The translations under genes and the position numbers were made by a program. A stretch of DNA of 39,352 nucleotides from an uncultured Luminiphilus sp. (GTDB lineage Bacteria; Pseudomonadota; Gammaproteobacteria; Pseudomonadales; Halieaceae). The notes under the pieces are model-generated. The model did not search any database, had not been told where the DNA came from, and saw only the letters and a program-made list of their open reading frames with translations. Every line of letters begins with the position of its first letter. Positions within the stretch are counted from its first letter, which is position 1. The stretch spans positions 1-39,352 of the forward strand of contig CAJQLP010000159.1 of assembly GCA_905479205.1 (NCBI GenBank), written 5' to 3'. Of this stretch, positions 19,718 to 23,913 are shown piece after piece.

Positions 19718-19805
19718 TGGCGGTGGGCGTAGGATTCGAACCTACGGAGGGTTTCCCCTCAACGGTTTTCAAGACCGCCGCTTTCGACCACTCAGCCAGC
19801 CCACC
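19718..19805 (-). tRNA. tRNA-Ser (anticodon UGA)
   Basis: On the minus strand an 88-nt type II tRNA is visible: acceptor GGTGGGC / GCCCACC with discriminator G and an encoded CCA, anticodon loop with TGA flanked by a GCGGT/ACCGT stem, a long variable arm (GAGGG / CCCTC) and TTCGAAT in the T-loop. These features identify serine tRNA reading UCA and UCG. It stands as a single-gene unit with its own promoter. Confidence 0.96.
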
Positions 19806-19974: not shown

Positions 19975-20640
19975 CATACTGAAAATAAGTGCCAGCTGTT
20001 TTGGTTACTGCAGCTGGGTGGGTGGTCTGCATGGGTCTTTACCTATTACTTAGCCGTTATTTTCTGGGGTGAGCCGCCCAAGCTTTACCCGCTCTATTTA
20101 TTGGCAGTGGCGATTTTTGGCTGTTTACTGACCTTTGTTCTGCGCGCTATTTGCTTTGGTATTGAGTATTACCTACTCAACCAAGAAGAAAAACAACGCT
20201 ACCTAACGGTTTTAAATCAAGCGCATCTGGCGCGGCATAAAATGCTGCGGTATCAGTTAAATCCACATTTTCTGTTCAACACGCTTAATGCCGTTTCGGC
20301 GTTGATTCTCGACATTGAGAAAGCACGCTTTGGTGATCGCCTGTCATTGCGCTACGAGCTCGGCCCCGATGTTCAAAACGCGCTGCTCCCGTCGCTACTG
20401 GTGAAGCCTTTAGTTGAAAACTCGATTAAATATGCAGTTTCTCAGTCAATTGATGGCTGGCAGATAAAGATTTCCGCATTAAATTGCGCGGGCAAGCTAG
20501 AGCTAATCGTATCTGATAATGGTCCTGGGATGCAGGCTGAGACGCTCGGCGCCACTAAGAAAAGTGGGGGAGTTGGGCTCGTCAATGTGCGTGAGGGAGT
20601 TGGTCGCTGCAATATAGCCATTCGGCACAAATTAATTGCA
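19975..20640 (+). pseudogene. Decayed LytS/AlgZ-type sensor histidine kinase
   Basis: The frame reads FWLLQLGGWSAWVF... with two or more membrane helices, then the His-box LNPHFLFNTLNAVSALIL with its phospho-acceptor His and the N-box LVKPLVENSIKYAV, then VSDNGPGM and GVGLVNVRE. This is the His_kinase plus HATPase architecture of LytTR-partner kinases. Three defects are seen. No in-frame ATG precedes the first helix (an in-frame TAA lies at 19972). About 40 residues normally found between 'SALIL' and 'DIEKARFGDRL' are missing, joined in frame. After NVRE the frame is lost, with the conserved continuation apparently in another frame and soon stopped. No response-regulator gene follows. It is not likely to be functional. 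Confidence 0.75.
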
Positions 20641-20664
20641 TATTGCGTCCCATATTGCTACAGT
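20636..20664 (+). promoter_or_regulatory. Candidate sigma70 promoter of the Csr/Rsm-like RNA
   Basis: TTGCAT (20636-20641), a 17-nt spacer and TACAGT (20659-20664) give a moderate sigma70 match, with the start expected near 20671. No clear GacA/UvrY palindrome (TGTAAG-N6-CTTACA type) was seen in the 100 bp upstream. Confidence 0.45.
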
Positions 20665-20670
20665 TGAATA

Positions 20671-20896
20671 TCTGGACGGAGAGCATGCCGGGTAGGGCAG
20701 CAGACGAGGGAAGAGCGTCAGCGGCGAAACCCGAAAACGTGCCTGAAAATGCGATAGCACCTCCACATCCAGTAGATGATGGTCAAGGATGAGCGGGGCA
20801 AGGAATGACCCACGAGCCAAGGAAGGCTTAGCGCAAGGCCCTATAGGGGCGAAGGGGTGTGTTGTAGAACAGGGACGTTCTGCCCCCCCTTTTTTT
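20671..20896 (+). ncRNA. Candidate CsrB/RsmZ-like CsrA-sequestering small RNA
   Basis: No coding frame fits this stretch, but six A-N-GGA motifs occur in about 226 nt: 20676, 20707, 20785, 20800, 20819 and 20871. Roughly one is expected by chance. Several are in hairpin loops: GACG/CGTC around AGGGAAGAG (20703-20719), AGCC/GGCT around the hexaloop AAGGAA (20815-20828), and AGAAC/GTTCT around the hexaloop AGGGAC (20866-20881). The last hairpin extends through GGGG...CCCC into a seven-T run, forming an intrinsic terminator. Multiple loop-displayed GGA motifs plus a terminator define the CsrB/CsrC/RsmY/RsmZ RNAs, which titrate the translational regulator CsrA/RsmA. The family assignment is inference and was not run against Rfam. 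Confidence 0.7.
20854..20896 (+). terminator. Intrinsic terminator of the candidate small RNA
   Basis: AGAAC / GTTCT with the loop AGGGAC, an outer GGGG (20854-20857) pairing with the C-run at 20883-20889, then seven T (20890-20896). Confidence 0.75.
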
Positions 20897-20913
20897 GTAG
20901 TTTAGGGCAATGG

Positions 20914-20943
20914 AGGCCACCGCAGCACTCGCTTGGGTGGCCT
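20914..20943. terminator. Hairpin between the small RNA and rne (convergent)
   Basis: AGGCCACC (20914-20921) pairs perfectly with GGTGGCCT (20936-20943) and is followed on the plus strand by TTT. It lies 15 bp past the rne stop on the other strand, so it may protect or terminate the rne mRNA and back up the small-RNA terminator. Confidence 0.6.
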
Positions 20944-20958
20944 TTTGCGTCAGGCGCT

Positions 20959-23913
20959 TCAGCCTTCAGCAGTATCCTCAAAGAGATCATTCGTGCCAGG
21001 CGCTCCTGGGTTTTCAGCGCCTATGGGCTTTGGCCCTCTGGGGTCATTGCTGGCTCGGGGCGCGTTTCGATGAATAACGCTCACGGGTGGAGCCTCTTGG
21101 GTCGTAAACAGCTCGCCACGTTCAGTAACAACCGCGACCTCGGCGACGGGCTTAGGGTCCACTCGAGGATCGTTAACGGCGCGTCCTTCTGTCGTCAAGC
21201 CAGATAGGTCAACCGAAACCTCTGGCGAGGATGCGGCTGGGGCAGTACTACTTACAGGCATCTCAGGCGCGGCCTGTGGTGGCGTGGCTGGCGCTTCTAA
21301 TGCCACCTCTAATGCCGCTTCTAATGCCGTTTCAGGCTCTTCTAATGCCGTTTCAGGCTCATCCGTAGTTTCTGCATGAGCGCCAATCGATAGGTCAACT
21401 GACGAGCCGGCGTGCTCCGTGCTCGCAGTGTCCGGCGATGTTTCAGCCACGGGTGTCTCGCAAGCTTCGGCAGGCGCTTCATCGACAACAGCCGCCTGGC
21501 TATTTTCGGAAGTCGAGGCCTGAGTTTCGCCTATGGTGTTGGCGGTCTCACTGTCACTGGCGTTGCCTATCGGCTGTGCAGTAACGGCTACAGCATCCTC
21601 AGCGAGCGGTGTGGCAAGGTTGGGGTCTTCAGGGCCCTGTGCGGAGTCCTCTGCAGCAAGCTCGGGTGAGGCATCAGTTGCAGCGTCTGGACGTGGGCCT
21701 CTCCGTCGACGGCGACCTTCGCTTTTCTGGCCGCTGGGACGGTGGCGGGCAGCGTTCTGATTGTCGACATCCTGCATAGCAGACTCGTTGACATCATCTT
21801 CTGCATCATTTTCTGCATCGCCGTCGGCAGCATCCATATCCATTGACAACTGCTGACTTGCTGGGTCATCCGTACCGGTGCGTCGCTGACCTCCGCGTCG
21901 ACCACGACGACGACGGCGCTTGGGCTTATCGTCATTCTCATCGTCACTGTAGGCGTCGTTATCCAGCTCGCCTTCTGCAAGTTGCTGCTCAACAGCATCG
22001 CCATTAACGGTTTCGTCGTCGCTCGCTCTGTCGCGCTTGCTTTGTGGTCGCTTGCGATTTCGGGCGCCGCGGGTTCTCGTATTGTCCTCGTCAGACCCAG
22101 TGCTTGCAGGTTCTGCGCTGCCAGCATTAGTGGTCGAGGATTCACTCGTTTCATCCTCGCCAGACGGTACAGGCGCAAACAAAGCGCCCCACACTTTGCT
22201 AAGAAATCCTGACTTTGTTGCTTTCGGTGCTGCCTTACGCTCAGGCGCCTGTGGTGCCATTTCCACAGCCGTTTCCGTCGCAGGCTCTTCTTGGCTAACG
22301 GGGGCGGGCGCTTGACGCTTAATGCCGCGCACCAATGGCTTTGGCACTGCTGGACTCTCGTTGTCTTCGTCGCGAATCAAAACGGGGCTGGGAACGTCTA
22401 GCTCGACTTCGAAGCTGATCACTTCCTCTTCTTCAACTTCATCATCGCGTAAGCGCGTCACCTCAAAGTGTGGCGTTTCCATATGCGGGTTCGGGATGAC
22501 GAGCAAGCGAACGCCATTGCTGCTTTCAATTGTGTTAATCGCAGCGCGTTTTTCATTGAGTAGGAAGGCGGCCACATCTACTGGTACTACAGTGCGTACT
22601 TCACCGGTACGCTCTTTCGCGGCTTCCTCTTGAAGAAGTCGCAAGATTGCCAAACCTAGAGATTTCGTGTCGCGGATTGTGCCCTGGCCGGTACAGCGGG
22701 GGCATACCATGCCACTCGTTTCACCGAGCGATGGGCGTAGCCGCTGCCGAGACATTTCGAGGAGGCCAAAGCGCGAAATGCGCCCGACTTGTACACGAGC
22801 TCTGTCAATTTCTAGAGCATCACGTACGCGATTTTCGACCGCACGCTGATTCTTGCTCGAACTCATATCGATAAAATCGATAACAATTAATCCGCCCATG
22901 TCTCGCAGACGCAGTTGGCGGGCAATTTCCTCCGCCGCCTCAAGATTGGTTTGCAGTGCTGTTTGCTCGATATCGGAACCCTTAGTCGCACGTGCCGAGT
23001 TGATATCAATGGACACAAGCGCCTCTGTAGGGTCGATTACGATCGATCCGCCAGAGGGCAGGCGCACTTCGCGCTGGAAGGCTGTTTCGATCTGGCCTTC
23101 TACTTGAAAACGGTTAAAAAGAGGTACGGTATCTTCATATTTTTTGACGCGCTGGCTAAAGCGTGGCATCACCATCGAGACGAAGTCGTTCGCCTGTTTA
23201 AAGGCGCCATCATCGTCAATGAGCACCTGATCAATATCATCGCGAAGGTAGTCCCGGATGGCACGTATTACAACGTCACTTTCTTGGTATAGAAGGGCTG
23301 GGCCTTTATTTTCGGCGCTGGCAGTCGAGATGGCATCCCATAGCTGTAAAAGATAGTCGAGGTCCCACTGCAGCTCTTCTGCGCTGCGACCGACACCTGC
23401 GGTACGAATAATTACGCCCATGCCATCAGGGATACTCAATTCAGACAGTGCTTCTCGTAATTCACTGCGGTTCTCGCCTTCGATACGACGCGAAATGCCA
23501 CCGGCACGCGGATTGTTGGGCATTAACACCATGTACCGGCCGGCGAGACTTACAAATGTCGTTAAAGCCGCGCCTTTGGTGCCACGCTCTTCTTTATCGA
23601 CCTGAACAATAATCTCAGTACCTTCCTTCAATACATCTTTTATGCGTGTCTTGCCCTCGCCATCGGGAGCAGAGCTACGATAGTACTCAGGGGATATTTC
23701 TTTTAGGGGCAAAAAACCATGACGGTCAGCACCAAAGTCGACAAAGGCGGCCTCGAGGCTGGGCTCTACTCGAGTGACTTTTGCTTTGTAAACGTTAGCT
23801 TTGGTAGAAACGCGAGCGCGGTTTTCAATGTCGAGATCATACAGTCGTTGACCGTCGACAAGAGCAACACGGACCTCTTCGGGTTGTGTTGCATTGATTA
23901 ACATCTTCTTCAT
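20959..23913 (-). CDS. rne: Ribonuclease E
   Basis: This 984-residue endoribonuclease is central to mRNA decay and to rRNA/tRNA processing. The catalytic half starts [22 protein letters not shown] and has the S1 domain (about 35-120), the 5'-sensor/RNase H-like regions, catalytic Asp residues in [13 protein letters not shown] and VIDFIDM, and the Zn-link CPRCTGQG. The C-terminal half (from about 540) is disordered and acidic, with Arg-rich RNA-binding patches ([25 protein letters not shown]) expected to scaffold a degradosome. A small internal repeat ([20 protein letters not shown]) is encoded by 21-bp and 12-bp DNA repeats at about 21293-21361. It is divergent from rluC behind a long structured leader; autoregulation through the leader is known in E. 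coli. Confidence 0.97.
21293..21361. repeat. In-frame short repeats in the rne C-terminal tail
   Basis: A 21-bp unit (TTCTAATGCCGTTTCAGGCTC) occurs twice in tandem, beside three shorter TCTAATGCC copies. All are in frame and encode Glu/Ala/Leu/Thr-rich repeats in the disordered tail, so copy number can vary without breaking the gene. Confidence 0.8.

Follow-up and report, generated by a model that had tools for sequence, protein, structure and literature searches.

A predicted CsrA-sponge RNA beside rne in an uncultured Luminiphilus species and similar candidate RNAs in its genus

The region between tRNA-Ser and rne

The window, a stretch of 39,352 nucleotides from an uncultured Luminiphilus sp., belongs to a draft genome that is 83% complete and consists of 230 contigs. 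Between a tRNA gene and rne it contains a kinase remnant and an intergenic stretch with six ANGGA motifs. The features of this region were compared with those of a sister species (genome G060, locus L052) and of another relative (genome G068, locus L053):

19718..19805, minus strand: tRNA-Ser(TGA), the left-hand neighbour common to the window and G060
19975..20667, plus strand: remnant of a LytS/AlgZ-type histidine kinase gene (a subtype that we presume), with about 43 internal residues missing and the C-terminus lost relative to G068
20632..20647, plus strand: promoter element TTAATTGCATATTGCG, which contains TTGCATATTGC; 15 of 16 bases are common to L052, at a matching distance
20636..20664, plus strand: weak sigma-70-like pair, TTGCAT - 17 nt - TACAGT, assigned from sequence
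20661..20896, plus strand: predicted Csr/Rsm-type sponge RNA, with an RNA at the equivalent place in G060 (L052:3088-3335, minus strand)
20703..20719, plus strand: hairpin GACG / 9-base loop with AGGGA / CGUC, the strict-hairpin site at 20707
20783..20792, plus strand: short hairpin UC-AAGGAU-GA, its GGA mostly paired in the full-length fold
20795..20811, plus strand: weak hairpin around the AAGGA at 20800, in which 3 of 5 aligned pairs form
20814..20829, plus strand: hairpin GAGCC-AAGGAA-GGCUU, with a two-sided change of one pair in L052
20839..20849, plus strand: hairpin CCCU-AUA-GGGG, which has no GGA; in L052 one of its pairs differs on both sides
20852..20896, plus strand: terminator region with an outer stem AAGGGG/CCCCUU, an inner hairpin UAGAAC-AGGGAC-GUUCUG (GGA in the loop) and T7
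20959..23913, minus strand: rne (RNase E), convergent with the RNA

The initial annotation described the upstream kinase gene as dead, and this decay was borne out by the comparison with G068, which holds the only tblastn match to the remnant among the 100 loci L052-L151 (43%, residues 55-206). The kinase frame of G068 is free of the gap and runs off the contig end; then follows a response regulator, presumably of the LytTR type, convergent with rne. No response-regulator gene follows the kinase remnant in the window, and the RNA occupies the place that this gene has in G068.

The 5′ end of the RNA is uncertain by about 10 nt, and its alignable core spans 20764-20896. All six ANGGA motifs reported earlier (at 20676, 20707, 20785, 20800, 20819 and 20871) were recovered from the sequence, and the claim that at least three of them lie in hairpin loops also held, as those at 20707, 20819 and 20871 are in loops closed by at least four pairs. 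The same is true of the two ideal GGA hexaloops, AAGGAA (20819) and AGGGAC (20871). In the full-length ensemble two of the six GGAs were fully open (20800 and 20819), while those at 20785 and 20871 were mostly paired, and the stability of the whole fold was not unusual (z -0.87). The intrinsic terminator with seven T was borne out in part: the T run is present at 20890-20896, but it abuts the outer AAGGGG/CCCCUU stem and not the GGA hairpin, and it is absent from the output of a simple terminator scan. A second terminator-like hairpin, GGCCACC...GGTGGCC-TTTT (T4), was seen at 20915..20946 on the plus strand, the strand of the RNA, just after the T7 run.

Chance, conservation and competing explanations

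The initial annotation expected about 0.9 ANGGA at random, which is understated, as dinucleotide shuffles of the stretch contain 2.05 on average. Six motifs were reached by 0.85% of 2000 local dinucleotide shuffles, and no 226-base stretch in the window, on either strand, exceeded the six of the candidate RNA. GGA per se is not enriched (7 versus 7.52 in shuffles, 70% of which reach 7), and clusters of at least six ANGGA were present in 41 of 200 whole shuffled windows. Three strict GGA hairpins (stem of at least 4, loop of 5-9) were counted in the RNA; 12 of 2000 local shuffles reached this number, and 137 of 300 whole shuffled windows contained three somewhere. A low strict count means little because the measure does not single out csrB of E. 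coli either (124 of 500 shuffles reach its count). The motif and hairpin counts of the window are within look-elsewhere chance, so that the window alone is suggestive and the case rests on the relatives.

These chance levels, and the position of the RNA directly after the kinase remnant, speak for another reading, in which the decaying kinase gene ends in a structured stretch, its 3′ UTR or terminator region, where GGA occurs by chance and CsrA has no role. We consider this explanation unlikely in view of G060, the closest relative by rne (93% identical over 500 residues). In G060 blastn detected nothing kinase-like in the interval from tRNA-Ser to rne, yet the interval has the GGA hairpins, and no cluster on the contig is denser. 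At this place beside rne, which had been set beforehand, the G060 RNA has seven ANGGA (reached by 0.25% of 2000 shuffles) and five strict GGA hairpins (reached by 1 of 2000), and it ranks first on its own 367,983-base contig for both ANGGA density and strict hairpins. Four of its seven GGAs were open in the full-length ensemble. In its local minimum-energy fold L052:3141-3182 instead adopts a competing hairpin, a point against the sponge reading.

The proposed check of GGA loops downstream of rne in relatives showed that they are kept in one other species, G060. When the two RNAs were aligned, 44 of 46 cells paired and 21 of 23 pairs formed in both sequences. Five of the 23 pairs were changed on both sides, compared with 0-1 in slid-partner controls. 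Letter shuffles reached the pair measures in 42-52 of 500 cases, a control that is weak because the alignment consists of two sequences. Three of the changed pairs lie in the inner hairpin of the terminator region, which in L052 reads GAGGGAC-AAGGAU-GUCCCUC, followed by TGC and T5. A GGA site in the terminator loop of both species fits an RNA of the CsrA-sponge kind. In L052 the counterpart of the weak hairpin at 20795..20811 encloses a hexaloop and forms all five pairs. Over the aligned 3′ part, 15 of 20 ANGGA columns were identical against 67 of 112 other columns; the motifs are thus only a little better conserved in primary sequence, and structure is the stronger conservation signal.

Between tRNA-Ser and rne, the sole collinear blastn pieces shared by the window and G060 were the RNA core at 20782-20827 (81% identity, E 3.5e-4) and the promoter element at 20632-20647. 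The latter has an E-value of 0.63 on its own, which is equalled by a non-collinear piece from the same region. The 5′ half of the window RNA had no blastn match.

Taken together, the motifs, the paired changes in the sister species, the similar upstream element and the csrA gene in the genome are the basis on which we consider it probable that 20661-20896 (plus strand) encodes an intergenic CsrA-sponge RNA of the CsrB/RsmZ type. The Csr/Rsm reading put forward initially is thus supported by the paired changes, by the CsrA gene and by similar RNAs in the genus. Such an RNA would be transcribed from the TTGC-rich promoter region, its GGA-loop hairpins, including that of the terminator, would bind CsrA dimers, and when abundant it would draw CsrA off its target mRNAs by titration.

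It is very improbable that the stretch is instead a leader or small-protein gene read by CsrA in cis. GGA hairpins do occur near start regions elsewhere in the genus (L204, L212), and both the window RNA and L052 have one frame that stays free of stops across the 3′ half. However, three single-base gaps shift these frames relative to each other in the alignment, no common start codon was seen between the window and L052, and the putative terminator would end the RNA before the next gene, rne, which is convergent. We give equally little credence to a base-pairing sRNA of the Hfq/ProQ type with incidental GGA loops, or to an RNA acting on rne mRNA. The RNA converges on rne, so that the two transcripts would overlap if a terminator failed. 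Against these readings stand the two-sided changes in the stems that enclose the GGA loops, the likeness of the terminator loop context ACAGGGACGU to the CsrA SELEX consensus, and the location beside rne, which was seen in 2 of 57 genomes.

For the same reason a function tied to RNase E, which had seemed intriguing from its proximity, was rejected: the position is not conserved, and decay of the E. coli type needs CsrD, which the account in PMC7652899 confines to Enterobacteriaceae, Shewanellaceae and Vibrionaceae. The adjacency to rne probably means nothing.

Distribution in the genus and family

Forty-four of the 57 genus genomes have an rne match. Besides the window, the rne neighbourhoods of 20 of the 43 others were fetched, and a matching RNA was found beside rne in G060 only. 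In L062, L063 and L065 counts of motifs 'downstream' of rne are misplaced because the rne frame is broken; the search with R1, a model built from the window RNA and the G060 RNA, still covered all fetched stretches. Under stricter filters R1 was convincing in 2 of the 57 genomes, many of which are incomplete, namely in that of the window and in G060. R1 hits in G024, G016, G072 and L168 were set aside, as each falls within a long frame without stops (148-497 residues) and the strand of the hit carries 0-2 ANGGA; a hit in G073 (L166, E 6.44) amounts to one short hairpin, with three ANGGA nearby. When the stretch was compared by blastn with 58 genomes of the genus and order, nothing beyond the window was convincing (next best E 0.0239, short pieces); the G060 RNA was missed because G060 is outside those 58 genomes. 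Phage records contained no match to the stretch.

A second model, R2, which contains the window RNA and L052 and therefore returns these as top hits by construction, gave 28 genus loci (L199-L226) that were screened, eight of them being read by eye. L202, L204, L205, L212 and L221 look like coding or leader sequence, and L199 was assigned to no class. GGA hairpins at or next to start regions were seen near 1498-1545 in L204, near 1500-1530 in L202 and L205, and near 1500-1570 in L212, beside genes that we take to be AraC-like, dprA-like and small lipoprotein-like; these are possible CsrA targets at the mRNA level.

The R2 hits L201 and L207, together with L162, led to a different RNA, which we call type A. 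Weak R1 and R2 hits thus pointed to RNAs in G068, G002 and G033, from which model R3 was built and run on 40 hand-chosen genomes of the 57. Type-A RNA (R3, E below 1e-5) was found in 16 of the 40, the three sources included (L227-L242; for instance L240:1501-1596). The initial description of the window RNA as the sponge RNA of this lineage is therefore too broad, as R1 is convincing in two genomes and a different RNA is found elsewhere in these 16. The matches are 89-107 nt long, a size nearest to that of RsmX/RsmY/RsmZ, and consist of a GUC-AGGA-N-GAC hairpin, a GGCCA-NGGA-NGGCC-like hairpin and a GGGGCANGGA...GCCCC hairpin. Fourteen of the 16 keep at least three GGA hairpins; in L238 and L242 the last loop has lost its GGA.

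Seven type-A loci lie beside an Lrp-like gene (tblastn), and in these the T run is short or missing, whereas it is clear in the nine loci without this gene. Among these nine, what we presume to be a folD-like gene was present in the six whose flanks were read, and two tRNAs in the four of these six that were scanned. In the alignment of all 16, 97.6% of cells pair and 14 two-sided changes were counted versus 5.5 in shuffles, figures that are favoured because the alignment was fitted to the model; the number of pair types is not above that of shuffles (371 of 500 reach it). No Rfam Csr-type match was obtained in the nine type-A loci scanned. Type A, similar in design to the window RNA, may be a new family of CsrA-sponge RNAs. 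R3 hits in L244 and L245 lie in long frames and were set aside.

The link between the rne-side RNA and type A is weak, and common descent is possible. In the 40-genome search the best R3 hit in G060 was the rne-side RNA (E 0.028, about chance), and in the genome of the window the best hit (E 2.78) lay elsewhere and the window RNA was not listed. In a small search the E-values were 0.00054 for L052 and 0.031 for the window.

In G297, from another genus of the family, two loci (L167:1327-1845 and L169) carry four ANGGA in a row each. They are 85% alike over 521 bases and have R1 E-values of 0.0026 and 0.0035 per genome in a search of 293 genomes. Their sequences would possibly represent two paralogous CsrA sponges.

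Comparison with known systems and regulation without GacA

Rfam was searched for the Csr-type families as suggested initially, and CsrB, CsrC and RsmX/Y/Z gave no match to the window RNA. Nothing in the window reached a gathering score; at E<=10 other families gave three weak hits in the region 20400-21000, all of them outside the RNA. L052 likewise had no match to Csr-type families. The window RNA resembles CsrB and CsrC of E. coli in being intergenic, in its repeated GGA in hairpin loops, in its putative intrinsic terminator and in the presence of CsrA in the genome, but it differs in having no Rfam match and in that no UvrY was found. In addition, CsrB has 369 nt with 22 GGA (7 ANGGA) compared to about 236 nt with 7 GGA (6 ANGGA). 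For the mechanism of CsrB and its decay through RNase E and CsrD we refer to the description in PMC7652899. Like the window RNA, RsmX/RsmY/RsmZ of Pseudomonas have fewer GGA hairpins than CsrB. Their promoters, as given in PMC4950607, carry the GacA UAS TGTAAG-N6-CTTACA; no UAS was seen near the window RNA. The same source describes RsmW of Pseudomonas aeruginosa as an RsmA-binding RNA that is not activated by GacA. RsmW probably arises by processing of a 3′ UTR, and its host possesses GacA, whereas the window RNA has an upstream putative promoter element common to the sister species. Pf2 and Pf3 of Pseudoalteromonas fuliginea were found via GGA motifs, putative promoters and terminators, and Csr sponge sRNAs are described in that context as usually lacking sequence conservation (PMC11882849). 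Pf1-Pf3, from another lineage, have 25, 21 and 9 GGA motifs, compared with 7 in the window RNA. No description of CsrA-sponge RNAs in Halieaceae appeared among the papers listed in full-text searches of an open-access library.

The CsrA/RsmA gene that the initial annotation called for is present in the genome (G000:C59:4827-4976, PF02599, 88 bits) and encodes arginine at position 44, a residue called essential for RNA binding in PMC7366521. With UvrY of E. coli as query, no GacA/UvrY orthologue was found in the same genome (best match 34%), in 57 genus genomes (matches of 23-24% in four) or in 120 family genomes (matches in 35, best 36%). Six of eight control genomes (Pseudomonas, Marinomonas, Cellvibrio, Shewanella and two order members) gave a UvrY match of 47-68%. 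As for the two other controls, the order member G045 reached 27% and Chromatocurvus, which we take to be of the same family as the window's genome, had no match. Since neither a GacA orthologue nor a GacA box was found, control of the RNA by GacA was rejected. Another regulator presumably drives these RNAs, acting on the TTGC-rich promoter region.

The -35/-10 pair with 17-nt spacing, reported earlier, exists but is weak (3/6 and 4/6 consensus bases) and is not in the list of a promoter scan; CATATT at 20651-20656 is an alternative -10. In L240 and L241 the type-A RNAs are likewise preceded by TTGCATATTGC. Together, the regions upstream of the 16 type-A RNAs contain 54 TTGC/GCAA versus 8.9 in base shuffles (maximum 20), an enrichment that is a lead because the base shuffle ignores promoter composition. 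Upstream of the window RNA and L052 there are four each (P about 0.002). In 4 of the 16 regions (L239-L242) two half-sites have the spacing of those in the window element, and they are identical in L240 and L241. TTGC[AG]NATTGC is found once in the window on both strands, against 25 occurrences of the looser TTGCN1-4TGC.

Recognition of a Csr sponge usually relies on its control by GacA/UvrY or on Rfam models, and both fail for the window RNA. It is most likely a known kind of RNA, in marine bacteria where the usual switch was not found. More tentatively, and with considerable doubt, we propose that the Csr circuit of Luminiphilus, and perhaps that of Halieaceae as a whole, operates without GacA, with sponges at varied loci (lrp-like, folD-like, rne) under TTGC-rich promoters read by one regulator, and that the RNA of the window's lineage replaced a dying two-component system beside rne. 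If this is true, a sponge layer can outlive its usual activator, as in these marine gammaproteobacteria without detectable GacA, and the replacement of GacA would become testable through one promoter region.
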